Positions 3,958 through 47,124 of a stretch of DNA of 47,124 nt are shown here, one piece after another. This stretch comes from a virus. Within the stretch, counting starts at the first letter, position 1, and the number at the start of each line of letters is the position of its first letter. Where the stretch lies: positions 1 to 47,124 of the IMG/VR virus record IMGVR_UViG_3300023112_000027; one strand, given 5' to 3'. The notes under the pieces were generated by a model. That model had not been told where the DNA came from and searched no databases. It saw only the letters and a list, made by a program, of their open reading frames with translations. A program made the position numbers and the translations under genes.

Positions 3958-4791
3958 ATGAAACGTGAAATGTATTTTAAAGCATTGGCAGCCCTTAAAA
4001 AGGCTGTAGATGATGAGTTTGGTCGAGGTAAAACACAAGCATTGTTGACTCTCAACGGTGAAGGTGTGGTAAATCGTCTTGATAACACCGCGTGTAGTGC
4101 AGGGTTAAACTACCTCAGAGATGACGCACGTAAAGACCTGCAATGCATCATCTCGTTAAACCAACTGAATAATGGGTGTAGAGAAGAGCTTACGCAAGAG
4201 GAGAGGCAGTTATTTTGTGACTGGTTCTTGAAACGTAGTCCTTACGCCAAGTGCATCGTCACTAAGAGTGTGAAAACTGCACTCACCCTTGGTATTATAG
4301 TTGACCCTAACTACCCAGCGAATTTAGTAGTTGGAACAACTATAGCACAACGTGTGTTATGGGAGTACACCAATATTGTCCAACGCTTCTGCCGCTTTAC
4401 TAAGGCAGGGATGGATGAGGATGCTGCTTTCGTCATGGCACACAGATATAGCGTGGACGATGGTAAGGTTGCAGAAAGCTGTGAGTCTGGGCACTGTGCC
4501 CTAAATGGAAACTATGTAAGTAAGGAGTATATTAGTAACTTCTCGAAGAGAACCTATAGGAATAAAAGGCGTAACTTCAATGTTGTACTTAAGTACGGCA
4601 TGATTCATAAGCTCTGGGGGGAATACTGGGCAAGAGATTCAGGAATTGACCAGAAGATAAAAGAACTTGTCAAGGTTGAGGTAGCGCCCAAAGAGATACC
4701 AAACCCATTCGCACTCACAATGAACCTCAAACGAAATGCACTCACTGTAGAGGCATGTGTTGAGTATATTCAATCAATCCTAGGGGAATAG
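3958..4791 (+). CDS. Unknown protein at head of amidoligase cluster (277 aa)
   Basis: A mostly helical, basic, soluble protein. It is cysteine-rich (about ten Cys), with a CxxxHC-type group near residues 176-182 (SCESGHCALNG) that might hold zinc. The middle carries YRNKRRNFNVVLKYG, and the C-terminus ends VEACVEYIQSILGE. There is no signal peptide or membrane helix. It is 1 bp from the class I amidotransferase gene and so is likely co-translated with the cluster, but I do not recognise its family and cannot say whether it takes part in the same chemistry. Confidence 0.8.
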   Translation: MKREMYFKALAALKKAVDDEFGRGKTQALLTLNGEGVVNRLDNTACSAGLNYLRDDARKDLQCIISLNQLNNGCREELTQEERQLFCDWFLKRSPYAKCIVTKSVKTALTLGIIVDPNYPANLVVGTTIAQRVLWEYTNIVQRFCRFTKAGMDEDAAFVMAHRYSVDDGKVAESCESGHCALNGNYVSKEYISNFSKRTYRNKRRNFNVVLKYGMIHKLWGEYWARDSGIDQKIKELVKVEVAPKEIPNPFALTMNLKRNALTVEACVEYIQSILGE

Positions 4792-4792
4792 T

Positions 4793-5413
4793 ATGCCTAA
4801 AGTATTAATTATTGATGGTGGCCCAAGCTACTATGCAATGTTCGACAAGATGGGTTGGAAGTTTGCAACAAAGGTTGAAGATGCAGACCTAGTACAGTTT
4901 ACAGGTGGTGCTGATGTAACACCTAGCTACTATGGGCAAGTACCTCACCCAACTACATCATCAGATGCAGGTCGTGACAAACGTGAAGCCCTTATCTTTA
5001 ATAAAGCACGTAAGTTAGGTAAGCCTATGGCTGGTATCTGTCGTGGTGGTCAGTTCTTACATGTGTTAAGTGGTGGCACACTATTCCAACATGTACATGG
5101 TCATGCAATGTTTGGGACACACGTTGCCGTAACGCCGGACGGGCATATCTTCCAAGTAACCTCGACACACCATCAAGCTATGCGAGATGATTGTGGGGAA
5201 GTCCTTGTAGTGGCCGAAACACACGCCCCACAGGAGTTTATGGACGAGGATGGTACGATTGCATTAAGCTCGGCATTAAACAGCGTAGAGAGCGTATATC
5301 ACGCTAATACGAAGGCTTTCTGCTTCCAACCTCACCCAGAGATGGACAAAGGGAAGGAATGCTGTGTGTTCTATTTCTCCAAACTAGCTGAATTGTTTGG
5401 GTTAGGGGCGTAG
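4793..5413 (+). CDS. Class I glutamine amidotransferase / C26-type hydrolase
   Basis: The triad is visible: nucleophile Cys83 in GICRGGQFLH (nucleophile elbow), with His181 and Glu183 in FQPHPEM. FTGGADVTPSYYG (about residues 36-48) matches the oxyanion and substrate loop of gamma-glutamyl hydrolase/PuuD-like members (GGxDxxPxxYG). At 206 residues it is a stand-alone domain. Known members either hydrolyse gamma-glutamyl bonds or pass ammonia from glutamine to a partner synthetase. Its place before a class II amidotransferase, two amidoligases and an ATP-grasp enzyme suggests it trims or supplies nitrogen for an amide- or peptide-bond-forming pathway. The exact substrate is unknown. Confidence 0.9.
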   Translation: MPKVLIIDGGPSYYAMFDKMGWKFATKVEDADLVQFTGGADVTPSYYGQVPHPTTSSDAGRDKREALIFNKARKLGKPMAGICRGGQFLHVLSGGTLFQHVHGHAMFGTHVAVTPDGHIFQVTSTHHQAMRDDCGEVLVVAETHAPQEFMDEDGTIALSSALNSVESVYHANTKAFCFQPHPEMDKGKECCVFYFSKLAELFGLGA

Positions 5414-5422
5414 TGGGATTAA

Positions 5423-5459
5423 GGGATGTGGTTTAGTTGCATTTACACCAGAAAATAAT
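5423..5459 (+). promoter_or_regulatory. 37-nt repeated leader element, copy 3
   Basis: GGGATGTGGTTTAGT (identical to copy 1), TGC, ATTTACACC and AGAAAATAAT, followed by TACAGGGG and the start of the class II amidotransferase gene. Confidence 0.7.
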
Positions 5460-5473
5460 TACAGGGGAATAGG

Positions 5474-6760
5474 ATGTGTGGATTAGTTGGGGTTGCCGGA
5501 GAAATTGGGCATACTGAAGATAAAGTCTTCAGAGATTTATTAATAATTGACAGTATTCGTGGCCCGCACTCAACAGGGGCACTTTTTGTGAGTAAGGCAG
5601 GGCATCCAACACTAATTAAAACTGCTGGAGACCCTTTTGTATTGCTGGAGAACACACGTTTCGCCACTCAAATGCGTTATGCTAACCGAGTGTTGCTAGG
5701 TCATAACCGTTACGCCACCAAAGGTGCAGTCAACAAGGCAAATGCGCATCCTTTTGAGTTTGATACTCTTATTGGCGCTCACAACGGTACATTGACAGGC
5801 CAATACCTGCTAGATGACCATAAAGATTTTGCTGTGGATAGTGAAAACCTATACTACCACATGGATAAACATGGTGTACAAGCTACTGCACCTAAGTTAA
5901 TGGGTGCTTATGCACTAACTTGGTATGATAAGAATGAAAGTTCAGTTAATTTCTTGCGCAACTTTGAGCGTCCTCTTTATTATACATTCGCCACAAGTAA
6001 TAAAACAATGTTCTGGGCTAGTGAGCCTTGGATGTTGACTGGAATCTTAGGTAAGCATAAGGTTGAGCACACCGACATCATTCAGGTGGAGGTGGGATAC
6101 CACTACAAGATGGTTATTGAAGGCAAAGGTATCCTGCCTGACATGATTATTGAAAAGGTCACGCCATACTCATACAAAGCAAAAAGCAGTAAGAAGAGCC
6201 ACACAAACGCACTGTCTACTTATGTACGGAACAAAGTATCACACATCTGCGGTGATGATGGGGTCTTTAGGGAACTTCAAGAGCATCTTGGGCAAGAAGT
6301 GTACTTTAGCGTGGTTGGTTTCTCTGCACCAACAGGCAACGACAAGAACGGGTACTACCTAGCAAGTATGTGTGCAAAACCACACATCAAGTTACGTATT
6401 ATCACCACAAAGGACAGCCGAACTAGCAAGAAGATTGATTGTGGGGAACGCTTTAGCGGTACGGTGAATCGAATTAACAAAAGGGCAGCTCCATACGGAG
6501 TTATAGCAAACGCAAGTATCTCTATTGTAAGAGAGTTACCTAGCGAGGATGATGAGGACGACTCACCATGCTTACTTGGCTATGGCGGTGCATTACTTAC
6601 AGAGCAAGAGTGGGAACATGCAACGAGTGGTTGCTGTGCTTGGTGTTCTAGCCCTGCTATTGCGGACGAGCATACAGATTACTCTTGGGTGGATGACAAC
6701 ACATACGTTTGTGGTGATTGCTCACAAGAAGCTGACGTTAAACAATATTTATTAGACTGA
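5474..6760 (+). CDS. Class II glutamine amidotransferase (Ntn) with C-terminal zinc-like domain
   Basis: Processing after Met1 would expose catalytic Cys2 (MCGLVGVAG). Family motifs follow in order: RGPHSTG (29-35), GHNRYATKG (76-84) and GAHNGTL (101-107), as in the glutaminase domains of GlmS and PurF. The domain covers about 220 residues. The partner synthase domain of those enzymes is absent. Instead there is a region of unknown fold and a Cys cluster (CCAWC at 387-391, CGDC at 413-416) that looks like a zinc knuckle. It probably releases ammonia from glutamine for the neighbouring ligases. It lies behind copy 3 of the leader element, 10 bp before the amidoligase gene. Confidence 0.9.
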   Translation: MCGLVGVAGEIGHTEDKVFRDLLIIDSIRGPHSTGALFVSKAGHPTLIKTAGDPFVLLENTRFATQMRYANRVLLGHNRYATKGAVNKANAHPFEFDTLIGAHNGTLTGQYLLDDHKDFAVDSENLYYHMDKHGVQATAPKLMGAYALTWYDKNESSVNFLRNFERPLYYTFATSNKTMFWASEPWMLTGILGKHKVEHTDIIQVEVGYHYKMVIEGKGILPDMIIEKVTPYSYKAKSSKKSHTNALSTYVRNKVSHICGDDGVFRELQEHLGQEVYFSVVGFSAPTGNDKNGYYLASMCAKPHIKLRIITTKDSRTSKKIDCGERFSGTVNRINKRAAPYGVIANASISIVRELPSEDDEDDSPCLLGYGGALLTEQEWEHATSGCCAWCSSPAIADEHTDYSWVDDNTYVCGDCSQEADVKQYLLD

Positions 6761-6770
6761 GAGGTAAGTT

Positions 6771-7670
6771 ATGAAAATCGGTAATAGCGAGTTTTTAATC
6801 GGGGCAGACCCAGAGTGTTTCGTACGTGAAATCAAATCTGGTAAGCTTGTCAGTGCTCATGGGATGTTGCCGGGCACTAAAAAGAATCCCCATAAAGTAC
6901 CTCACGGTGCGGTGCAGATTGATGGCATGGCAGCAGAGTTTAACATTGACCCAGCAGCAACGTGCGAAGAGTTTGTGCGTAATGTCACGTCAGTGTTGAA
7001 CACCATCCGTGAGATGATTGGGCCTGAATACGAGTTGGTGTTCACCCCCACAGCACACTTTGGTAAAGAGTTGATTGATGCTCAACCACAAGAGGCTAAA
7101 GAGTTGGGTTGTGACCCAGACTTCAACGCATACACAGGCAAAGAGAACCCTGTACCAGATGCTGAACTTCCATTTCGTACTGCAGCAGGGCATATCCACA
7201 TAGGGTGGACAGAGGGCCAAGACTCACACAATGCAGAACATTACAAAATCTGCCGCCACATAATCAAGCAATTGGACTACGCAACACTGCCCACCACACA
7301 GCTTGAGAATGATGACACACGACGTAAGCTATACGGCAAGGCTGGGGCGTTCCGTCCTAAGTCTTACGGGGTAGAGTACCGTACACCCTCTAACTTCTGG
7401 TTAGAAAGTGAGGAAACAATAAGTCTGATGTACATTGCGGTTACTCAGGGCATTAAGAAGCTCGTCTCTGGGGAGGAGGCGTACTCAGATAGCCCACACC
7501 AACAATCAACAGTACGAAGTACCTTCGACAAGGTTGAGGGCGTATACCAATACGACAATTTGGACTGCAAAAATCTCGCGAGAAAGTTCGGTTACAGAGA
7601 CCAGCTCCTTCACGCCCTCGAAGCCCAAAGACTACGTCCCCAACCACGTGAGGGGCTTTTCCATGTATGA
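6771..7670 (+). CDS. COOH-NH2 ligase type 2 (amidoligase)
   Basis: The protein matches the phage amidoligase family first noted in phiEco32, a circularly related branch of the glutamine synthetase fold. Visible motifs are GADPECF (11-17), DGMAAEFNID (51-60), GHIHIGW (140-146) and VEYRTPSNFW (201-210). Their acidic, His and Arg residues are those expected to bind Mg-ATP and substrate. The predicted reaction is ATP-dependent joining of a carboxylate to an amine. Members occur beside ATP-grasp enzymes and amidotransferases in phages (Iyer and colleagues, amidoligase survey). Substrate and product are unknown. The stop overlaps the next start by 8 nt. Confidence 0.9.
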   Translation: MKIGNSEFLIGADPECFVREIKSGKLVSAHGMLPGTKKNPHKVPHGAVQIDGMAAEFNIDPAATCEEFVRNVTSVLNTIREMIGPEYELVFTPTAHFGKELIDAQPQEAKELGCDPDFNAYTGKENPVPDAELPFRTAAGHIHIGWTEGQDSHNAEHYKICRHIIKQLDYATLPTTQLENDDTRRKLYGKAGAFRPKSYGVEYRTPSNFWLESEETISLMYIAVTQGIKKLVSGEEAYSDSPHQQSTVRSTFDKVEGVYQYDNLDCKNLARKFGYRDQLLHALEAQRLRPQPREGLFHV

Positions 7671-8223
7671 CCATGCTGAGTATGCTAGAACACGCCTAGT
7701 TGGCACTATCGTCCTACATCGTCGCACTCCTGTCTACATAGAGACAATTAAACGGGATATGACAGCTACTGTATACAATCCACTACAGAAAAATGCCAAG
7801 GCTTACCAAGTGCCGCTATGTGGGCTGAACCTCTTAGACTTTGAGTTAGGTTTTATTAACAAGCCACGAGGCGCTGTGTATCTATCCCGTAAGCCACTAC
7901 GGCATGACTGGAGACAAGGGCTTCGGACTAATAACGTACACTCAAGCAATGGACGTACCACCATGGATGATATTGCGGGGGCATTGCTCCACCGTTACCC
8001 CAGCTTCCAGCAGGTAGCCAAGCGGGTGTTGGTTGATAGGCTAGTCCCTAGCTGTGCTTGGTGTCAAGAGTTTGCAATGAACTCTCAGAACAAGATTATC
8101 TGGCGCTATGACGTGGTTGGGCAATACTCTCATGGGGATTCAGCAATAACACTTGATGCTCGATTTAAGTTCTTAAAATACAGTTTGGAGGAGGTTACCC
8201 GTGACAGTTGCAAAGTATTTTAA
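7663..8223 (+). CDS. Conserved-looking amidoligase-associated protein (186 aa)
   Basis: The start MYDHAEYARTRLVGT is chosen because GAGGGG lies about 7 nt upstream and it overlaps the amidoligase stop. The open frame extends further upstream, but only inside the previous gene. The N-terminal half is beta-rich (RLVGTIVLHRRTPVYIETI), with a later VYLSRKPLRHDWRQGL motif. A SCAWCQEF pair (about residues 131-134) could bind metal. The second amidoligase starts inside its 3' end (23-nt overlap). I do not recognise a characterised family. Its position between two amidoligases implies a role in the same pathway, perhaps as substrate, carrier or binding subunit. Confidence 0.8.
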   Translation: MYDHAEYARTRLVGTIVLHRRTPVYIETIKRDMTATVYNPLQKNAKAYQVPLCGLNLLDFELGFINKPRGAVYLSRKPLRHDWRQGLRTNNVHSSNGRTTMDDIAGALLHRYPSFQQVAKRVLVDRLVPSCAWCQEFAMNSQNKIIWRYDVVGQYSHGDSAITLDARFKFLKYSLEEVTRDSCKVF

Positions 8224-9043
8224 CATACCTGACAGGAAGCTCACCGATGGTGACCTAGGGGTTGAGGTTGAGGTTGAGGGATGCAACCTACCACGACGCA
8301 TCCCAAGATACTGGAACACTGATTATGATGGAAGCCTTAAAGGAGAGGCTTACGAGTATGTCTTAGCTAAGCCCCTAAAGAAACCTGAGTTAGCTAAGGC
8401 TCTGGTTGAGTTGGATAAGGCGTACTTAACTAACGGCAGTGTGGTTAACGACAGTGTACGCTGTGGTGTGCATGTCCATGTGAATGTGCAGAAGTTAACC
8501 ATTACACAACTATACAACTTCTTCACCCTATACTCATTGTTTGAAGGCCCGTTGCTACACTACTGTGGTAAGGGTCGTGATGGGAATCTATTCTGCCTAC
8601 CCTTGAATAAGAGCCCTCAAGTTGTGTATGCCTTACGTGAGGCAGCACAGCAGAAAGAATTCCGCCCATTGTATGACGATGCCTACCGCTACTGTGCAAT
8701 GAATGTCAAGGCATTAGGTCAGTATGGTAGCCTTGAGTTCCGTGCCTTACGTGGCGGCCCTGACCTACAGCGTGTGTACAAGTGGGCTGAGCTGTTGCAA
8801 CACCTACGTGATGTGGCAATGGAGTTTAAAGACCCTTGTGAAATCATTGAGTCTGCCTCCCTTAATGGGCACTTAGAAACATTTAAGAAACTCCTTGGAG
8901 ATAAACGCTCCGTCATGTTTAAGGCTGTACCAAACATTAAACGTAAGCTACAGAAAGGCGCACGTAATGCAGCAGCAATTGCTTTTGCAACTAACTGGGC
9001 AGACTTCGATAAGAAGTATGACCCTTACCCAGATTTCTATTAA
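8201..9043 (+). CDS. Second amidoligase (amidoligase_2 type)
   Basis: Motifs of the putative amidoligase family (PF12224-like) are clear: LGVEVEVEG (19-27, paired acidic metal ligands), DGSL (43-46) with EYVL (52-55), CGVHVHVNV (88-96) and YGSLEFRALRGG (175-186). The order E-x-E, D-GS, HxH and EFR is that of glutamine-synthetase-fold ligases. The start is GTG with a strong GGAGGAGG site, inside the end of the previous gene. It is only distantly like the ligase at 6771, so the two probably act on different substrates or steps. Confidence 0.85.
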   Translation: MTVAKYFNIPDRKLTDGDLGVEVEVEGCNLPRRIPRYWNTDYDGSLKGEAYEYVLAKPLKKPELAKALVELDKAYLTNGSVVNDSVRCGVHVHVNVQKLTITQLYNFFTLYSLFEGPLLHYCGKGRDGNLFCLPLNKSPQVVYALREAAQQKEFRPLYDDAYRYCAMNVKALGQYGSLEFRALRGGPDLQRVYKWAELLQHLRDVAMEFKDPCEIIESASLNGHLETFKKLLGDKRSVMFKAVPNIKRKLQKGARNAAAIAFATNWADFDKKYDPYPDFY

Positions 9044-9052
9044 GGAATTGTC

Positions 9053-9874
9053 ATGAAATTATTTATTAAAGGCCACAAAGCTGGTAGTAAGTCCGTTAAG
9101 GCGTTACGTGATGTATTAAAGGCTGCTGATGTTGATGTCAAGCTTATTCGTAATAAGAATAGTAAGTATGTACACGATGCGGAAGAACACCTAGTGATTA
9201 ACTGGGGTGATAGTGGTGCGGAAGTCTATGGGAATATGTTAAATGACCCGAGAGCTATCTCTTTTGCGTCAGATAAAATGGCGACATTCAAGTCATTGGC
9301 CGAACGTGATGTAAGCTCAGTCCCTTTCTTCTTTACTAAGGAAGGGGCTCAGGACTTCCTAGAAGCTCGTGAGGGACGCGTTGTTTATTGCCGTACAATC
9401 ATCCAAGGTAGTCAAGGGGATGGCATTGTAGTGGCTAAGAATGCCGATGAGCTAGTACCTGCCAAGCTATACACTGGCGGTATTGTTGACAAGAAACGTA
9501 AGGAGTATCGGGTACATGTGTTCAACGGCAAGGTTATCAATATACAAGAGAAGCGTCGCCGTAATGGTTACAAGGAGCTTGAGAACTACAGTGACGATGT
9601 ACGAAATCTTGCAGGTGGCTGGGTATTCTGTACCAAGGATGTCAAGCTTGGGGACGAAACGGTACAGACCTGTGTTAATGCCGTAGCTGCATTAGGCTTA
9701 GATTTCGGCGCTGTAGACATCTTACAGACAACCAATGGTAAGTGTTGGGTATTGGAAGTAAACACCGCCTGTGGCTTACAAGGCTCTACTGTGGACAAGT
9801 ATGTAGAAGCTATTAAGGATTACCTAAACCCTAAGGTGGCTGATGTTGCAGATTTAGTCTGGGGTGAGGATTAA
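9053..9874 (+). CDS. ATP-grasp ligase
   Basis: A compact ATP-grasp protein. The N-terminal domain ends near DKMATFK (74-80). The flexible glycine loop is GSQGDGI (119-125). EYRVHVFNGKVINIQEKRRR (151-170) gives the adenine and substrate part, and the metal-binding C-lobe has DFGAVDIL (217-224) and LEVNTACG (234-241). This layout is that of RimK/YheC-type carboxylate-amine ligases that add amino acids to peptides or cofactors through an acyl-phosphate. It closes the cluster, 10 bp after the second amidoligase. The probable role is the first or a chain-extending peptide-bond step. The substrate is not evident. Confidence 0.9.
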   Translation: MKLFIKGHKAGSKSVKALRDVLKAADVDVKLIRNKNSKYVHDAEEHLVINWGDSGAEVYGNMLNDPRAISFASDKMATFKSLAERDVSSVPFFFTKEGAQDFLEAREGRVVYCRTIIQGSQGDGIVVAKNADELVPAKLYTGGIVDKKRKEYRVHVFNGKVINIQEKRRRNGYKELENYSDDVRNLAGGWVFCTKDVKLGDETVQTCVNAVAALGLDFGAVDILQTTNGKCWVLEVNTACGLQGSTVDKYVEAIKDYLNPKVADVADLVWGED

Positions 9875-10547: not shown

Positions 10548-12212
10548 ATGGGAAGATGTATAGCAGAGCTCCCACATGAATGTGGTACAGAGTTCGGGCT
10601 TCGTGCCTTTGAACGTGAAGATGGCACAGTAGATGGATTCTGCTTTCGTTGCCACAAGTATGTACGGCATCCGTTTGGTAAGCCAATGGGTGTTGAGGAT
10701 GTCCCAGCACCCAAACGTAAGTTAGGGCTAACAGAGGAGGAGTTAGCAGAGGCATTTGCAGAGATTGCAGAGTGTAAGGCCGTTGACCTAGTAGACAGAC
10801 GTTTACGGGCTGATTGCTTAGACTACTATGGAATTAAGATTGGCATGGACAGAGCCACTGGGAAGAAGCCTGAGCTTCACTACTATCCATACACTAAGAG
10901 GGGGAAGATAGCAAGGTGTAAAGTAAGACTCATTGAAAATAAAAGAATGTGGTCTATTGGTAATGAAAAAGATGTAGACTTATTTGGGTGGGAACAGGCA
11001 GTAGCCTCAGGCGCTAAGCGTTTGCTAATCGTTGAAGGAGAGCTTGATTGTCCTGCACTTAAACGTATCATTGATATTCACACCAAACCTGAATTTGACC
11101 AATACAAACCTGCCGTGGTGTCCCTGATTAACGGGAGTAAATCCGCAGGTAAAGACTTAGCTAGGCTTGCACCTAAGATACGTAAGCACTTCAAGGAAGA
11201 GGACATCAGCTTTGTCTATGATGATGACGAGTCAGGTGAACACGCCGTGGAAGACTCAATCAAAGTGTTCCCTAATGCAACATCAGTAACACTGCCAAGT
11301 AATGATGCCAATGCCTGTATCCTAGAGGGCACTACAAGGGGTGCGTTCAACGCAGTGATGTTCAAGGCAGAGAAGCCTAAGAACTCTCGGCTAGTGTCCG
11401 CTGATGACTTGTTTGAGGAAGCTAAAGTGCCTGCTGAGTTGGGTGTTAGCTGGCCTTGGGCAGTTATGACAGACATGACTCGTGGTATCCGTACTGGGGA
11501 GACTATCTACATAGCCGCTGGGGAGAAGATGGGTAAGTCTGAGATAGTTAACGCCCTTGCAGCACACCTCATTAAAGAGCATGGTTGGAAAGTGTTCTTG
11601 GCTAAGCCAGAGGAGGCATTGAAGAAGACGGTCAAGATGCTGGCGAACAAGATGGTCGGTTCTGTGTTCACAGACCCACACATTCCGTTTGATGAGTCTG
11701 CATACAACAAGGCTTGTGACCTGATGAAAGGTAAAGTCAAGCTCCTTGGTGTGTACCAGCATGTTACTTGGGAGGTGTTAAGGGCTGACATATGTGCAGC
11801 AGCAGCTTGGGGTACTAAGGCGGTGTTCATAGACCCACTAACATGTCTTACAAACGGCATGAGCAGTACAGAACGTAACGATAAGCTGATGGGGATAGGG
11901 CAAGAGTTAGCAGCCTTGGCACTAGACCTTGACATTGTAATCTTTATCTTTGCCCACCTAAATAAACCAGCACAAGGCGCTACGCCATGGGATAGGGGTG
12001 GTAAGATAACAACAAACTACTTTGCAGGTAGTAGCGGCATGGCACGTAGCTGTAACTACGCAATAGGGTTGGAGGGAAATAAAGACCCAGAGCTTAGTGA
12101 GGATGAACGTAACATCAGGAAGTTAGGCTTGCTTGCAGACCGAGAGTTTGGTGAGTCCGGCTATTGTAATCTCTACTGGAACAAGGCTAACCACATGTTT
12201 AGTCAGATATAG
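10548..12212 (+). CDS. T7-like bifunctional primase-helicase
   Basis: Domains run in the T7 gp4 order. A zinc-binding region has C12 with C32/C35 (HECG ... CFRCHKYV). The TOPRIM primase has EGELD at 163-167 and YDDDESG at 224-230. A DnaB-type helicase follows, with Walker A AAGEKMGKS at 323-331, Walker B AVFIDPLTCL and the C-terminal NYFAGSSGMARSCNY segment. At 554 residues it matches the usual size. It unwinds the fork and makes RNA primers for the family A polymerase encoded 1.3 kb downstream. It begins a replication operon with small genes inserted between the core enzymes. Confidence 0.95.
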   Translation: MGRCIAELPHECGTEFGLRAFEREDGTVDGFCFRCHKYVRHPFGKPMGVEDVPAPKRKLGLTEEELAEAFAEIAECKAVDLVDRRLRADCLDYYGIKIGMDRATGKKPELHYYPYTKRGKIARCKVRLIENKRMWSIGNEKDVDLFGWEQAVASGAKRLLIVEGELDCPALKRIIDIHTKPEFDQYKPAVVSLINGSKSAGKDLARLAPKIRKHFKEEDISFVYDDDESGEHAVEDSIKVFPNATSVTLPSNDANACILEGTTRGAFNAVMFKAEKPKNSRLVSADDLFEEAKVPAELGVSWPWAVMTDMTRGIRTGETIYIAAGEKMGKSEIVNALAAHLIKEHGWKVFLAKPEEALKKTVKMLANKMVGSVFTDPHIPFDESAYNKACDLMKGKVKLLGVYQHVTWEVLRADICAAAAWGTKAVFIDPLTCLTNGMSSTERNDKLMGIGQELAALALDLDIVIFIFAHLNKPAQGATPWDRGGKITTNYFAGSSGMARSCNYAIGLEGNKDPELSEDERNIRKLGLLADREFGESGYCNLYWNKANHMFSQI

Positions 12213-17569: not shown

Positions 17570-18555
17570 TGAAACCATTAATCGATATGGATATTTTACG
17601 CTATGAAATTGGGGCGTGTGGGCAGTATGAAGATGAAGAAGGTAACATAGTAGCTAAGAGCTTTGATGGAGTGGCTGCTGCTGTTGACCAGAAGATTAAG
17701 GAAATCTGTGCCCTTGTCTGGGCTACAGAAGAACCTTTATGCTTCCTTAGTATGGATGCACGTACTAAGAAACGTGACGCTCGTAAGATTGAGCGTAAGG
17801 TTAAGCGCCTTGAGAAGAGATTGGAGGGGAATCCCCTAGACGCTTCCGCAAACGCTGAGGTGAAAGTTCTTAAGGAGCAGCAAGTATATAAGCCCAACTT
17901 CCGAGAGAACATAGCCAAGAAGAAAGTGTATAAGGGCAATCGTGCTGCATCAGTCAAGCCTTTACACTATGACAACATCACTGAGTATATCTTAGCAGCA
18001 TACGACTGTGTAATGGCAGAGGGTCTTGAAGCAGACGACCTCCTCTCCATCTACCAACGTAAGGCAATGGCCGAGTGTAAAGACCCTACTACCATCATTT
18101 GCAGTAGGGACAAAGATTTGGCCCAGTGTAACGGAATGTATTTCTCTTGGGAGTGTGGGCGACAGAAGCAATTCGGGCCAGTCCTAGTGTCTGGGCTAGG
18201 TTCGTTACGCCCAATCTACAGAGGTAAGAATGCAAAAGGAGAGCCTAAGTTAGCGGAAGTAAAAGGTGTGGGGGTGTCGTACTTTGCCGCACAAATGCTT
18301 ATGGGAGACCCAACGGACAACATACCGGGGCTACCGGGGTGTGGGCCAACAAAGGCGTACCCCTCACTAAAAGACTGCAACAGTGAGCAGGAGTTGTTCA
18401 CCGCAGTTAAGGAGTTGTACGTCCTGAAGTTTGGTGATGGGTGGGCAGAGGAGATGCTTGAGCAAGGTAGGTTATTATTTATGGTGCAGGAACTAGATGA
18501 GGACGGCAAGCCAATTATGTGGCAGTTGCCAGAATATCTCTTGGAGGATGTTTGA
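17569..18555 (+). CDS. 5'-3' exonuclease (FEN/T7 gp6-like)
   Basis: Acidic metal ligands appear in order: LIDMD (Asp6 and Asp8), EADDLLSI (Glu154, Asp156, Asp157) and SRDKDL (179-184). The helix-hairpin-helix DNA-binding part is GDPTDNIPGLPGCGPTKA. Between residues 66 and 105 a lysine-rich helical stretch probably forms the arch through which single strands pass. It removes primers and degrades DNA ends. ATG 17569 is chosen over GTG 17566 because GGAGG is better spaced. The end overlaps a downstream TTG-started HNH gene. Confidence 0.9.
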   Translation: MKPLIDMDILRYEIGACGQYEDEEGNIVAKSFDGVAAAVDQKIKEICALVWATEEPLCFLSMDARTKKRDARKIERKVKRLEKRLEGNPLDASANAEVKVLKEQQVYKPNFRENIAKKKVYKGNRAASVKPLHYDNITEYILAAYDCVMAEGLEADDLLSIYQRKAMAECKDPTTIICSRDKDLAQCNGMYFSWECGRQKQFGPVLVSGLGSLRPIYRGKNAKGEPKLAEVKGVGVSYFAAQMLMGDPTDNIPGLPGCGPTKAYPSLKDCNSEQELFTAVKELYVLKFGDGWAEEMLEQGRLLFMVQELDEDGKPIMWQLPEYLLEDV

Positions 18556-19040
18556 TAACACAAGCGAGGTTAATGGAGGTGCTACAACTTAACAATGATT
18601 GCACCGGATTTATCAACAAAGTGCGGAGAGGTAAGTGCTTGATTGGAGACAGTCCGGGGTATCCCCTTGAGGGGTACACGTACTTAATGCTGGACGGTAA
18701 AGCGTACCCCGCACACCACCTGATGTGGCTGTGGCATAAAGGGGAACTACCACCAAAAGGCTTCGACATTGACCACGAGGATTTGCGGCGGGACAACAAC
18801 CACATTACAAACTTGCGGTTGGCAACCCGCTCCCAGAACATGCTCAACACAAAAGCACATAAGGACAGTAGGTCTGGTATTAAGAATGTATTCTTTAGGA
18901 GGGATACCGGGAAGTGGGCAGTGCGGCTCACTGTGAACGGGAAGTACAAATCTTTCGGAAGTTTCGAGGACTTAGAGCTGGCTGAACTTGTTGCCGAGGA
19001 GGCCAGAGAAAAGTATCATGGGGAGTTTGCAAATGGCTAG
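18552..19040 (+). CDS. HNH homing endonuclease with AP2-like DNA-binding domain
   Basis: The likely start is a TTG overlapping the exonuclease stop (TTGA), with GGAGG 4 nt upstream. The reading begins ITQARLMEVLQL. HNH motif: YPAHHLMWLWHKGELPP, then DIDHEDLRRDNNHITNLR and NMLN. A C-terminal AP2/ERF-type module follows (SGIKNVFFRRDTGKWAVRL, GKYKSFGSFEDLELA). This two-domain layout is typical of free-standing phage homing endonucleases. It is inserted directly between exonuclease and another nuclease gene, as expected for a selfish element that parks next to conserved genes. Confidence 0.85.
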   Translation: MITQARLMEVLQLNNDCTGFINKVRRGKCLIGDSPGYPLEGYTYLMLDGKAYPAHHLMWLWHKGELPPKGFDIDHEDLRRDNNHITNLRLATRSQNMLNTKAHKDSRSGIKNVFFRRDTGKWAVRLTVNGKYKSFGSFEDLELAELVAEEAREKYHGEFANG

Positions 19041-19470
19041 ACCAAGCGGTGAGAAGAATAGGTGTTCTGGGCAGTGGACGGAAGCGAAGTTCCACAGCTT
19101 CATTAAGAGTATGCTGAGGCAGGGCACTAGGAAATGGGCCCCTATACAGCAATGCCTGAAGGAGGCAAGAGTGCGACGGGGCTGGTACTTGTGTGCCTAT
19201 TGCAACCAAGAAGTACCTGCCACAATACTAACCACACTAAAGAACGGGAAGACTAAGCGAGTAAAGAACGCAATTGCAGACCATTTGATTCCCGTAGTGC
19301 CGCCAGAGGTAGGCTTTACCACATGGGATGACCTGATAGAGGGCATGTACTGCGAGATAGATAACATAAAGTGCTGCTGCCACGCTTGCCATCAGGTCAA
19401 GTGTGCAGAAGAAGCAGCCATTGCTAAAGAGCGCCGGGCAAAAGAGAAACAGGAGAAGTTAGATGAGTAA
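19033..19470 (+). CDS. HNH endonuclease, second type (145 aa)
   Basis: The start MARPSGEKNRCSGQW is chosen because GGGGAG lies 8 nt upstream. Upstream codons belong to the overlapping HNH gene. Motifs: WYLCAYCNQEVPA (CxxC), ADHLIPV (His of HNH), then DNIKCCCHACHQVKCAEE (CxxC and terminal His). This order matches structural zinc plus beta-beta-alpha-metal nucleases. It lacks a homing DNA-binding repeat, so it may be a phage-function nuclease, for example in recombination or packaging. It overlaps the next gene by 8 nt. Confidence 0.75.
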   Translation: MARPSGEKNRCSGQWTEAKFHSFIKSMLRQGTRKWAPIQQCLKEARVRRGWYLCAYCNQEVPATILTTLKNGKTKRVKNAIADHLIPVVPPEVGFTTWDDLIEGMYCEIDNIKCCCHACHQVKCAEEAAIAKERRAKEKQEKLDE

Positions 19471-20493: not shown

Positions 20494-20919
20494 ATGACAA
20501 CTATAGTCTATAGCCATGAGCACAAAGAAATCGCATTCGACTCACGAGCATCCCGTGGTGGAGACATTGTAACAGACGACTACAACAAGTTATACAAGAG
20601 TAATGGTGTACAGTTCATCATCTCGGGGAGTCCTGCTGATGCTGAGGTATTCATTGCAATGTACGAAGACCCTGAGCTACGTGCCATCCCTGAGATTGAT
20701 GCCATTGTGGTTGATGAAGGGAAGGTGTACAGTGTTCATCCCACAGAGGAGGGTGAGTTATCTTGCTTCGAGGCCTACTTTGATATTGGTGCAGGGAGTG
20801 GCTCTCCTTGGGCCATTGCTGCCCTAGACCACGGCAAGACACCACGACAGGCTGTTAAGTATGCAGCTACTCGTGACTTATACACTGGCGGTAAGATTCA
20901 TGTGATTAAGGTGAAGTAG
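20494..20919 (+). CDS. HslV/proteasome-fold peptidase
   Basis: The N-terminus MTTIVYSHEHKEIAFDSRAS aligns with HslV: Thr exposed after Met removal, DSR matching the GDG aspartate, and NKLY giving the catalytic lysine 16 residues later, the same Asp-Lys spacing as HslV. FIISGSPADAEVF matches the HslV AGGTADAF loop. The later IGAGSGSPWAIAALDHGKTP matches the IGSGG..A.AAA segment. At 141 residues it is shorter than HslV (about 175). No HslU-like unfoldase is encoded here, so it may use a host partner or act alone. The predicted activity is threonine-dependent peptide hydrolysis. Confidence 0.75.
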   Translation: MTTIVYSHEHKEIAFDSRASRGGDIVTDDYNKLYKSNGVQFIISGSPADAEVFIAMYEDPELRAIPEIDAIVVDEGKVYSVHPTEEGELSCFEAYFDIGAGSGSPWAIAALDHGKTPRQAVKYAATRDLYTGGKIHVIKVK

Positions 20920-24172: not shown

Positions 24173-26362
24173 CTACTCCCCCTTAATGCGTTTCATAATA
24201 GAGATTAACTTCTCGGCATACTTAGGGTCAGTTGCATACCCTGCATCTTGCAGTGCTTGCGCTTGCTCCTCTGGTGTACCTGCCTCAAGTGCCTTGGCAT
24301 ATCTTGGATTGCTTAGTATGAAGTCCTTATACCCCTTGACACTATCCGAGAATCCCTCGAACTTCTTGAACTCATCATCAATCTTCACACGCTTACCGTC
24401 TACGACTTCGTGTGTTGTGATGGTCTGTCCCTTCCCTTTTATGCCAAAGTAGTTACTTCCTTTTACACTCTTGCCCCAACCCGACTCAAGGATAGCTTGT
24501 GCTGCCACTACCTCTGGGTGGATGCCAGTTCCTTGGACAACCTCAGTTATCGTTGGCACTATTGAGTTGACAAAGCCTTCCCTCGTTGAGGTGTCAAGCG
24601 TAGGCTCTGCCACTGCTACTTTCCCAGTAGGAGTAGTATTAATATTAGATTCCTCACTCTTCACCTCCTGTGGCTTTTTTACACCTTCCTCGGCTCCTTC
24701 CTCCTGTGGTAAGAAGAACTTACTACCTTCCTCAAAAGAAACTCCCAAAGCTTTAGAGTATACATTTACGGATGGAACTACATCTTCTCGTAGTTTCTTG
24801 TTCAGGTCACGTATGTCCTTTTGGGCAAGGCGGCTGTTCAAGTGTTCAGGTTTTAGTTCCCAGTGAATGTTCCCGTCAGTGACAACGAGTGTAGCTACGT
24901 CTGCAATAGGCTTGCTCTCCCTTGTGTAGCCTCCTGCGAATCGTGGGTCAGACGCACTACTACGTGCGGTATTCACCTGAGCACCTGTCACGGCCTCACG
25001 GATAGCAACATCAGTTACGTCAGTAACATACATCTGCATAGTCTCAAATGCAACACGCTTCTGCTCGGGGTTAAGTACATCCATAGCACCCTCAACATTC
25101 ATAAGGTCTACAACATACTTAAGTTCGTCTGTGTCATAGTCCATGCCATTACGGTGCATGTGTGTGATGACACCCTCCAACGAGTCAGCCAACTCCCCCT
25201 TAACCTCAGCATCTACCTCGGGCTTAGCTCCCTGCTCCACTACAGTCTTTAGTGCCACCTTATCTTCCTCTGTGGCCTCTGTAACATCAAGAGGTTTAAC
25301 TGGCTTAGGCTTAGGATTAAGTCTATTCAACTCATCCTTGGTCGCCTTAGAGGTCACAAAGTCAACAACAAACTTACTCATACTCACCCCGATTCCCGGC
25401 TGATGTCCCATAAGTTTAGATGCAGTGACCACTGCTAGGCGGTCTGGGTCTGATACAAACAATGCCTCAGCGATGTTCGTATTGCGGGCACGACGTGCTG
25501 CTGCTGCCTCAGTCTCAATCGTCTGATTTACAATGTCTTCTGCGAGCTGTAGCTCCTCTTGGATAGGCTTGGCTAACGCCATGATACTAGGGTCAGTTGC
25601 ATACTCCCCTAGGCTGGCGATGCCACGGTTGAGCTCCATCTTATTCTTACGGATAACTAGGAGCGCCTCCTCTTGTGTCATATCTCCACGTTTCCATGAC
25701 TCTACAAGCTCATCTGCCTCGTTCTCGTTCTTGGTGAGCAAGTCCTTAGACACTGTCTGGAATCCAGCCAACACTGTTGTCTTGAGCTGTCTTTTAGAGA
25801 TTCGCCCTTGCTGCTCCTCTTGTGACATACGTTTAATGTCAGCAGAGATAATCTTATCCTTCATCTGCAAGGACTGGAACACCTCAAACTGTTTGTCGTT
25901 AAACTCTTGTGATGCACCAAAGCGACCAAACCCATCACTGATTGCAGCATTGCGCCGTTTCTGCTCTGCCGCCTCATCCACAGAAGGGCCAGCGGAAGTT
26001 TCCCCAGTGGCCTCCTTGAACAGTCTACTCGCATCTGTGGCAAGCTCTGGGTGTTCTGCATTAAACTTAGATAGTGCTAGGCGTTGCTCACGAGAGACAT
26101 CAACCTTACCACTCGTAGCCCCTGCCTGTCGGATGTTTAGGAGGCGTTGAGACAGGTCTCCCATTGCTGTTGCAGTTGTACGCTTAGCCTCATCCACTGC
26201 CTTAGCTTGCTGGTGTCTGGCTGCCTGTTGGAAGATGCCAGCACCGACGTTGAGTGCTTGCACAACACCCTCCGAACCAGTGCCTTGTACTACTGGCACT
26301 TCCGCGAACTGCGGAGCACCTCCTTGTTGTACCTGATTTACTTGCTGAAAGCCTGTAGGCAT
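24173..26362 (-). CDS. Internal virion protein with C-terminal GH73 glucosaminidase
   Basis: The first 560 residues are helical and glutamine/alanine-rich, like T7 internal protein gp15. From about residue 590 a GH73/FlgJ-type lysozyme domain follows: AQAILESGWGKS with catalytic Glu626, NYFGIKG, FEGFSDSVKGYKDFI and ending YATDPKYAEKLISIMKRI. It cleaves peptidoglycan, probably to let the tail extension pass during DNA entry. No separate endolysin gene was found, and the lysis-type membrane genes lie directly downstream, so it may also serve lysis. It overlaps the end of the 1527-residue gene by one base. Confidence 0.85.
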   Translation of the reverse strand: MPTGFQQVNQVQQGGAPQFAEVPVVQGTGSEGVVQALNVGAGIFQQAARHQQAKAVDEAKRTTATAMGDLSQRLLNIRQAGATSGKVDVSREQRLALSKFNAEHPELATDASRLFKEATGETSAGPSVDEAAEQKRRNAAISDGFGRFGASQEFNDKQFEVFQSLQMKDKIISADIKRMSQEEQQGRISKRQLKTTVLAGFQTVSKDLLTKNENEADELVESWKRGDMTQEEALLVIRKNKMELNRGIASLGEYATDPSIMALAKPIQEELQLAEDIVNQTIETEAAAARRARNTNIAEALFVSDPDRLAVVTASKLMGHQPGIGVSMSKFVVDFVTSKATKDELNRLNPKPKPVKPLDVTEATEEDKVALKTVVEQGAKPEVDAEVKGELADSLEGVITHMHRNGMDYDTDELKYVVDLMNVEGAMDVLNPEQKRVAFETMQMYVTDVTDVAIREAVTGAQVNTARSSASDPRFAGGYTRESKPIADVATLVVTDGNIHWELKPEHLNSRLAQKDIRDLNKKLREDVVPSVNVYSKALGVSFEEGSKFFLPQEEGAEEGVKKPQEVKSEESNINTTPTGKVAVAEPTLDTSTREGFVNSIVPTITEVVQGTGIHPEVVAAQAILESGWGKSVKGSNYFGIKGKGQTITTHEVVDGKRVKIDDEFKKFEGFSDSVKGYKDFILSNPRYAKALEAGTPEEQAQALQDAGYATDPKYAEKLISIMKRIKGE

Positions 26363-38397: not shown

Positions 38398-38474
38398 TGG
38401 TCAGTGTGGTAGGATTTGAACCTACGACCACAGGTATCCAAGACCCGTACGCTACCAGACTGCGCTACACACTG
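38398..38474 (-). tRNA. tRNA-Pro (UGG)
   Basis: A complete 77-nt cloverleaf: acceptor CAGTGTG/CACACTG with encoded CCA, D-arm GCGC...GCGT, anticodon loop CTTGGAT (TGG), and T-arm GTAGG-TTCAAAT-CCTAC. It is closely similar in plan to bacterial tRNA-Pro. Confidence 0.95.
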
Positions 38475-38480
38475 TTAAAT

Positions 38481-38556
38481 TGGTACGCCTACCAAGACTC
38501 GAACTCGGACTATAAACTTAGAAGGATTATGTGCTATCCGCTTACACTATAGACGC
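38481..38556 (-). tRNA. tRNA-Arg (UCU)
   Basis: 76 nt with acceptor GCGTCTA/TAGGCGT and encoded ACCA. The D-stem is GTGT/GCAC, the anticodon loop CTTCTAA (TCT) and the T-arm CCGAG-TTCGAGT-CTTGG. One T-T mismatch is present in the anticodon stem. It reads AGA/AGG codons, which are often rare in gammaproteobacterial hosts. Confidence 0.9.
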
Positions 38557-46987: not shown

Positions 46988-47124
46988 GTCGAATGTTATT
47001 GGCCCTTTGTACTGCTAAGGAAAGGCTAAGGCCAATGCTCATAATTTCCCCGAGAATATTTTTAGGTGCATTGCATATATATAACAATCACTCAACCCCC
47101 CTGCCCCCCCCCCCTTGGCTTCTG
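46988..47124. repeat. Terminal redundancy, right copy
   Basis: The same 137 bases as at positions 1-137, with three substitutions to C in the final 25 bases. The clustering of errors at the very end in a C-run suggests base-calling error rather than biological change. If the overlap is removed, the unique genome is about 46,987 bp. Confidence 0.9.

Follow-up and report, generated by a model that had tools for sequence, protein, structure and literature searches.

A known kind of phage amidoligase cassette with two conserved partner proteins in a Zobellviridae-like phage

The 47,124-nucleotide stretch of phage DNA analysed here (IMG/VR record IMGVR_UViG_3300023112_000027, below called the window) carries an amidoligase cassette of the known phage type represented by RIO-1, phiEco32, LUZ24 and CW02, whose genes very probably act jointly in one pathway. 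We put the probability of this reading at roughly 85%, a figure that does not cover the target. An earlier note on this DNA had claimed seven genes on one strand at 3958-9874, filling about an eighth of the genome. The open reading frames were indeed found there on the + strand and take up 5,917 of the 47,124 bases (12.6%):

3958..4791, +, UNK1 (277 aa), phrog_27195; regular cassette gene, putative Cys/His enzyme
4793..5413, +, GAT1 (206 aa), class I glutaminase / Peptidase C26 (PuuD/Lin1909-like), Cys83-His181-Glu183
5474..6760, +, GAT2 (428 aa), class II (N-terminal Cys) glutaminase domain plus C-terminal part
6771..7670, +, COOH-NH2 ligase (299 aa), phiEco32 type, PF14395, phrog_3815
7663..8223, +, UNK2 (186 aa), phrog_11055; between both amidoligases in nearly all loci
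8201..9043, +, Amidoligase_2 (280 aa), GTG start, PF12224, phrog_7469
9053..9874, +, ATP-grasp ligase (273 aa), RimK-like, PF08443, phrog_2599
10548..12212, +, DNA primase/helicase, context outside the cassette, which it usually follows in relatives

Intergenic spacing within the cassette ranges from -23 to +60 nt, none of the seven genes contains an internal stop, and most starts are preceded by a purine-rich stretch resembling a ribosome site. The best start for UNK2 is the ATG at 7663, which falls within the COOH-NH2 ligase gene near its end; UNK2 is in turn overlapped by the second amidoligase gene, which starts with the GTG at 8201. The G+C content of the cassette (0.455) is close to that of the genome (0.457). 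Scans for promoters and terminators gave matches no more numerous than in shuffles. On the 3' side follow the primase/helicase, a sigma factor, DNA polymerase, exonuclease and ribonucleotide reductase, so that genes for the COOH-NH2 ligase, Amidoligase_2, the ATP-grasp ligase and the glutaminases lie clustered beside replication genes, which is what defines a phage amidoligase cassette.

Pfam matches of all five recognisable enzymes exceed the curated cut-offs, and PHROGs matches to phage families (7218, 18128, 3815, 7469 and 2599) are much stronger than the Pfam ones. The COOH-NH2 ligase matches PF14395 at 8.8e-11 (41.9 bits, cut-off 25) and has the invariant acidic, His and Arg residues; the second amidoligase matches PF12224 at 3.2e-6 (27.7 bits, cut-off 22) with the ExExE and HxHxN motifs present. 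The two had been called unrelated-looking, and they are not detectably alike: profile comparison gave a probability of 2.5%, with only an HxH motif in common. For neither amidoligase did sequence searches yield a solved relative. The ATP-grasp ligase (PF08443, 9.8e-8, 32.3 bits, cut-off 21) contains the metal ligands D222, E235 and N237, and its nearest relatives are RimK-type alpha-L-glutamate ligases (rimK_fam 4.3e-12).

Both glutaminases have the residues named in the earlier note, and other family-invariant residues are kept as well. GAT1 (Peptidase_C26, 5e-20) has the triad C83, H181 and E183 in GxCRG and HPE motifs, which places it with Peptidase C26 and class I GATases. Its profile is nearest to Lin1909 and three entries named 'probable glutamine amidotransferase' among solved proteins, with a PuuD entry among the matches. 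GAT2 (GATase_6, 4.7e-15) is a class II GATase with the N-terminal C2 and the glutamine-pocket residues R79, N104, G105 and D122; its N-terminal domain is nearest to PurF/GlmS among solved proteins. Behind the glutaminase domain no synthetase domain was detected, and the C-terminal part of about 200 aa holds the conserved cysteines C391, C413 and C416. Full alignment revealed no loss of catalytic residues: those of all five recognisable enzymes are conserved across phages and intact in the window.

Linkage was assessed by running profiles of the seven proteins on IMG/VR loci collected from three anchors (GAT1, COOH-NH2 ligase and ATP-grasp). The loci are best matches to one member per scan, which biases them to complete cassettes of close relatives, and some contigs are common to the scans; within this sample all seven genes were present in 60 of the 61 GAT1-anchored loci with enough flank, the remaining one lacking UNK1 only. 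UNK1, GAT2, UNK2, the amidoligase and ATP-grasp accompanied the COOH-NH2 ligase in all 54 loci anchored on it (GAT1 in 52); in this sample both UNK proteins thus co-occur with amidoligases, which the earlier note had suggested checking. Loci anchored on ATP-grasp were more varied: only GAT2 and ATP-grasp were found in 14 of the 38 that had 7 kb or more of sequence on each flank, and in 8 of these the two genes are neighbours. The inspected GAT2 proteins of this reduced set start with MCIAI or MCVAI and keep the N-terminal Cys, with Pfam scores below the curated cut-offs. No fusions between cassette genes were found in the loci examined. For each of two cassette genes, IMG/VR holds at least several hundred matching stretches (more than 500).

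The Vibrio phages 1.235.O and VPMCC5 are close to the window in their core genes (terminase 73-74%, primase 56-60% identical), and none of eight profiles (the seven cassette genes plus gamma-glutamyl cyclotransferase) matched in either. Because of the near-complete co-occurrence on one side and this joint absence on the other, the cassette is an all-or-none module, gained or lost as one unit. In T2S2 the terminase and primase are close to those of the window, and the amidoligase is only 36% identical; since core and cassette similarity disagree, this suggests exchange of the cassette between phages. Among 84,980 GTDB species genomes the cassette or parts of it occurred at 11 loci (L255-L265). 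All are on metagenome-assembled contigs of 4.8-49.5 kb and are for that reason probably phage contigs binned with hosts. In three of them (L255, L256 and L257) the ATP-grasp gene does not follow the amidoligase; a divergent version (E about 1e-16 to 1e-20) either separates GAT1 from GAT2 or precedes UNK1.

The genes are also linked in relatives, which is not what unlinked insertions would give. The same order before the primase/helicase is seen in DMTU_1, CVT22, Pecta, Asterion and T5S1, and also in BA6 and Phriendly. CW02 has the same cassette with UNK1 at the other end of the record. Zobellviridae cassettes (the first five of these, CW02 and PA11/TC6) thus share genes and order with the window, whereas identity of the cassette proteins is about 23-52% over aligned parts; several have small ORFs inserted between genes. 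The nearest relative among the loci compared is an IMG/VR contig (L016) whose cassette genes are 39-64% identical and whose gene order is that of the window as far as the contig extends. Rearranged sets occur in RIO-1, LUZ24, phiEco32, Rhizobium phage N3_19 and 7-11. LUZ24, phiEco32 and 7-11 have the COOH-NH2 ligase, UNK2, amidoligase, GAT2 and ATP-grasp in common with the window, but GAT2 follows the amidoligase, a cyclotransferase is added and GAT1 was not found; in 7-11 a tandem pair of UNK1-like genes is present.

The cassette is of a kind already described, and the window presents it in another phage, so the novelty claimed in the earlier note does not hold; the idea of superinfection block through peptidoglycan was likewise in print. 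A seven-gene 'peptidoglycan modification cassette' with a superinfection hypothesis was reported for RIO-1-like podoviruses, with phiEco32, 7-11, PA11, tf, MR299-2, LUZ24, PaP3 and CW02 as carriers and with reference to Hardies 2013 and Iyer (PMC5498523). It has the same ligases, class II glutaminase and UNK proteins as the window, also adjoining the primase/helicase; RIO-1, however, has a gamma-glutamyl cyclotransferase and no detected C26 GAT1, whereas the window has GAT1 and no cyclotransferase. The same hypothesis was put forward for a LUZ24-like phage together with an endolysin-target idea (PMC11945000), and an amidoligase with a GATase was described in OM43 phages (PMC10580990).

The absence from the window of a cyclotransferase (no match with a profile of six phage cyclotransferases) also bears on the earlier proposal of a 'complete pathway', which was overstated: many relatives add this enzyme (it was found in 52 of the loci examined) and other phages keep only GAT2 and ATP-grasp. 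In the DMTU_1 locus no cyclotransferase is annotated; therefore cassettes without it exist, and the enzyme is common but not strictly required.

Both UNK proteins had been presented as undescribed. This did not stand as to their existence, as they are regular cassette members with their own families (PHROGs 27195 and 11055); it stood in that they are without known function. Searches of viral contigs with UNK1 or UNK2 as single proteins gave no matches. A first alignment of UNK1 was too divergent to reveal patterns, which was solved by anchoring loci on conserved neighbour genes. Across the resulting 170 aligned sequences, with gaps scored as misses, Cys46, Arg132 and Glu136 are each conserved in more than 90%, His179 in 88% and Ser94 in 84%. 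AlphaFold2 modelled the protein with confidence (pLDDT 87.5, pTM 0.88), yet no fold in the PDB matched better than E 4, nor was there a credible sequence match to solved structures. Given near-invariant residues and a confident model without PDB match, UNK1 looks like a putative, uncharacterised Cys/His enzyme. Within a viral fold library the model matches proteins of other phages of this type, as far as RIO-1 and GAP52, and ties UNK1 to GAP52, Aeromonas and Proteus phage proteins. The profile detected homologues in RIO-1 and 7-11. LUZ24 gp14/gp15 and phiEco32 gp87/gp88 were considered as homologues and discarded, as the profile detected none there.

The model of UNK2 has a pLDDT of 94.8. In the PDB it resembles only SH3-like/KOW/Tudor barrels, along some 50 residues (E 0.33, probability up to 0.98), a weak fold match from which it may be a scaffold. 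A role as structural partner of both amidoligases is at most plausible, because the gene sits between them.

That the seven genes form one linked pathway making and editing amide bonds, as the earlier note had it, is well supported at the level of sequence by intact catalytic residues, conserved linkage and all-or-none presence. In such a pathway the COOH-NH2 ligase, Amidoligase_2 and the RimK-like ATP-grasp enzyme would act one after another in the cytoplasm, each spending ATP to attach amino acids or amines to a peptide or metabolite that bears a carboxylate. GAT2 would hydrolyse glutamine to supply ammonia, and its likeliest recipient is the ATP-grasp enzyme, since other phages retain just this pair. 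Like PuuD, the C26 enzyme would cleave gamma-glutamyl amides. UNK2 may hold both amidoligases together, and UNK1 would be a further Cys/His-dependent enzyme. The putrescine pathway of PuuA and PuuD likewise pairs a GS-type ligase with a C26 gamma-glutamyl hydrolase; the phage set differs in its two amidoligases, its ATP-grasp enzyme, its class II GATase and the two additional proteins.

As to the target, the peptide stems of cell-wall precursors, favoured in the literature, are a candidate that we consider more likely wrong than right; a protein of host or phage, or a small peptide in free form, is about as likely. Altered stem peptides in peptidoglycan could block superinfection or make the wall cuttable by the phage's own lysis enzyme. 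Apart from being the published hypothesis (PMC5498523; the lysis-target variant in PMC11945000), this possibility agrees with D-Ala-D-Ala ligases among the weak relatives of the ATP-grasp enzyme and with the ability of C26-type enzymes to act on gamma-glutamyl links. The enzymes also look cytoplasmic, which is the site of precursor synthesis; strongly hydrophobic segments were absent from all seven cassette proteins. Our search of the open literature, however, yielded no experiment on cassette function or a peptidoglycan target, and the lytic domain of the window is a glucosaminidase, which cuts glycan and not peptide. This domain lies at the end of a late 729-aa protein (24173-26362), and Pfam gave no match to it in the tested corresponding proteins of two cassette-free relatives.

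Rather doubtful is a small-molecule role, in which host metabolism or defence would be altered by a free gamma-glutamyl peptide or amide. The PuuD-like C26 enzyme would fit such a product, as would gamma-glutamyl-CDP-amidate hydrolase as a weak relative (9.7e-6) and the cyclotransferase of many relatives; against it, no product is known and no PADLOC defence family matched at E 0.1 in a library without counter-defence models. A protein of host or phage to which the ligases attach glutamate or other amino acids seems unlikely. RimK adds glutamate to ribosomal protein S6, and RimK-type ligases are the best relatives of the ATP-grasp enzyme, but two amidoligases and a C26 enzyme need no protein substrate and no tagged protein is known. 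Accessory genes that are neighbours by chance are highly improbable: varying gene order and reduced sets might be read that way, but near-complete co-occurrence and joint absence refute it at the level of linkage.

The analysis adds new details: for UNK1, the conserved residues and a model without PDB match; for UNK2, a hint of its fold; and, for the cassette as a whole, the reduced set of GAT2 and ATP-grasp and the all-or-none pattern. Returning to the joint-pathway reading, a bolder version is conceivable, though we would not count on it: UNK1 would represent a new enzyme family with a fold absent from the PDB, using Cys, His, Arg and Glu for a pathway-specific step, and GAT2 with ATP-grasp would be the catalytic core, so that the amide product would be of an undescribed kind. 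This widespread cassette takes an eighth of a small phage genome, and the natural contrast between relatives that have the entire set and relatives that lack it makes the product question testable in cultured phages.

By its terminase the phage falls among Zobellviridae-like phages, and the late genes are on the strand opposite to the cassette. An exact 119-bp direct repeat is present at both ends (1-119 and 46988-47106), followed on the right by 18 further bases. The window is a near-complete phage genome with terminal redundancy; given this repeat and the annotated terminal repeats of RIO-1 (121-bp) and Phriendly (105-bp), it probably represents a whole genome flanked by direct terminal repeats. 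In the late region tRNA-Pro(TGG) and tRNA-Arg(TCT) lie side by side (38398-38556). A 141-aa protein (20494-20919) matches the HslV peptidase family in PHROGs (6e-27) and, weakly, Pfam Proteasome, and is a putative phage-encoded proteasome-like peptidase. Two HNH endonuclease-like ORFs (18519-19470) adjoin the exonuclease.
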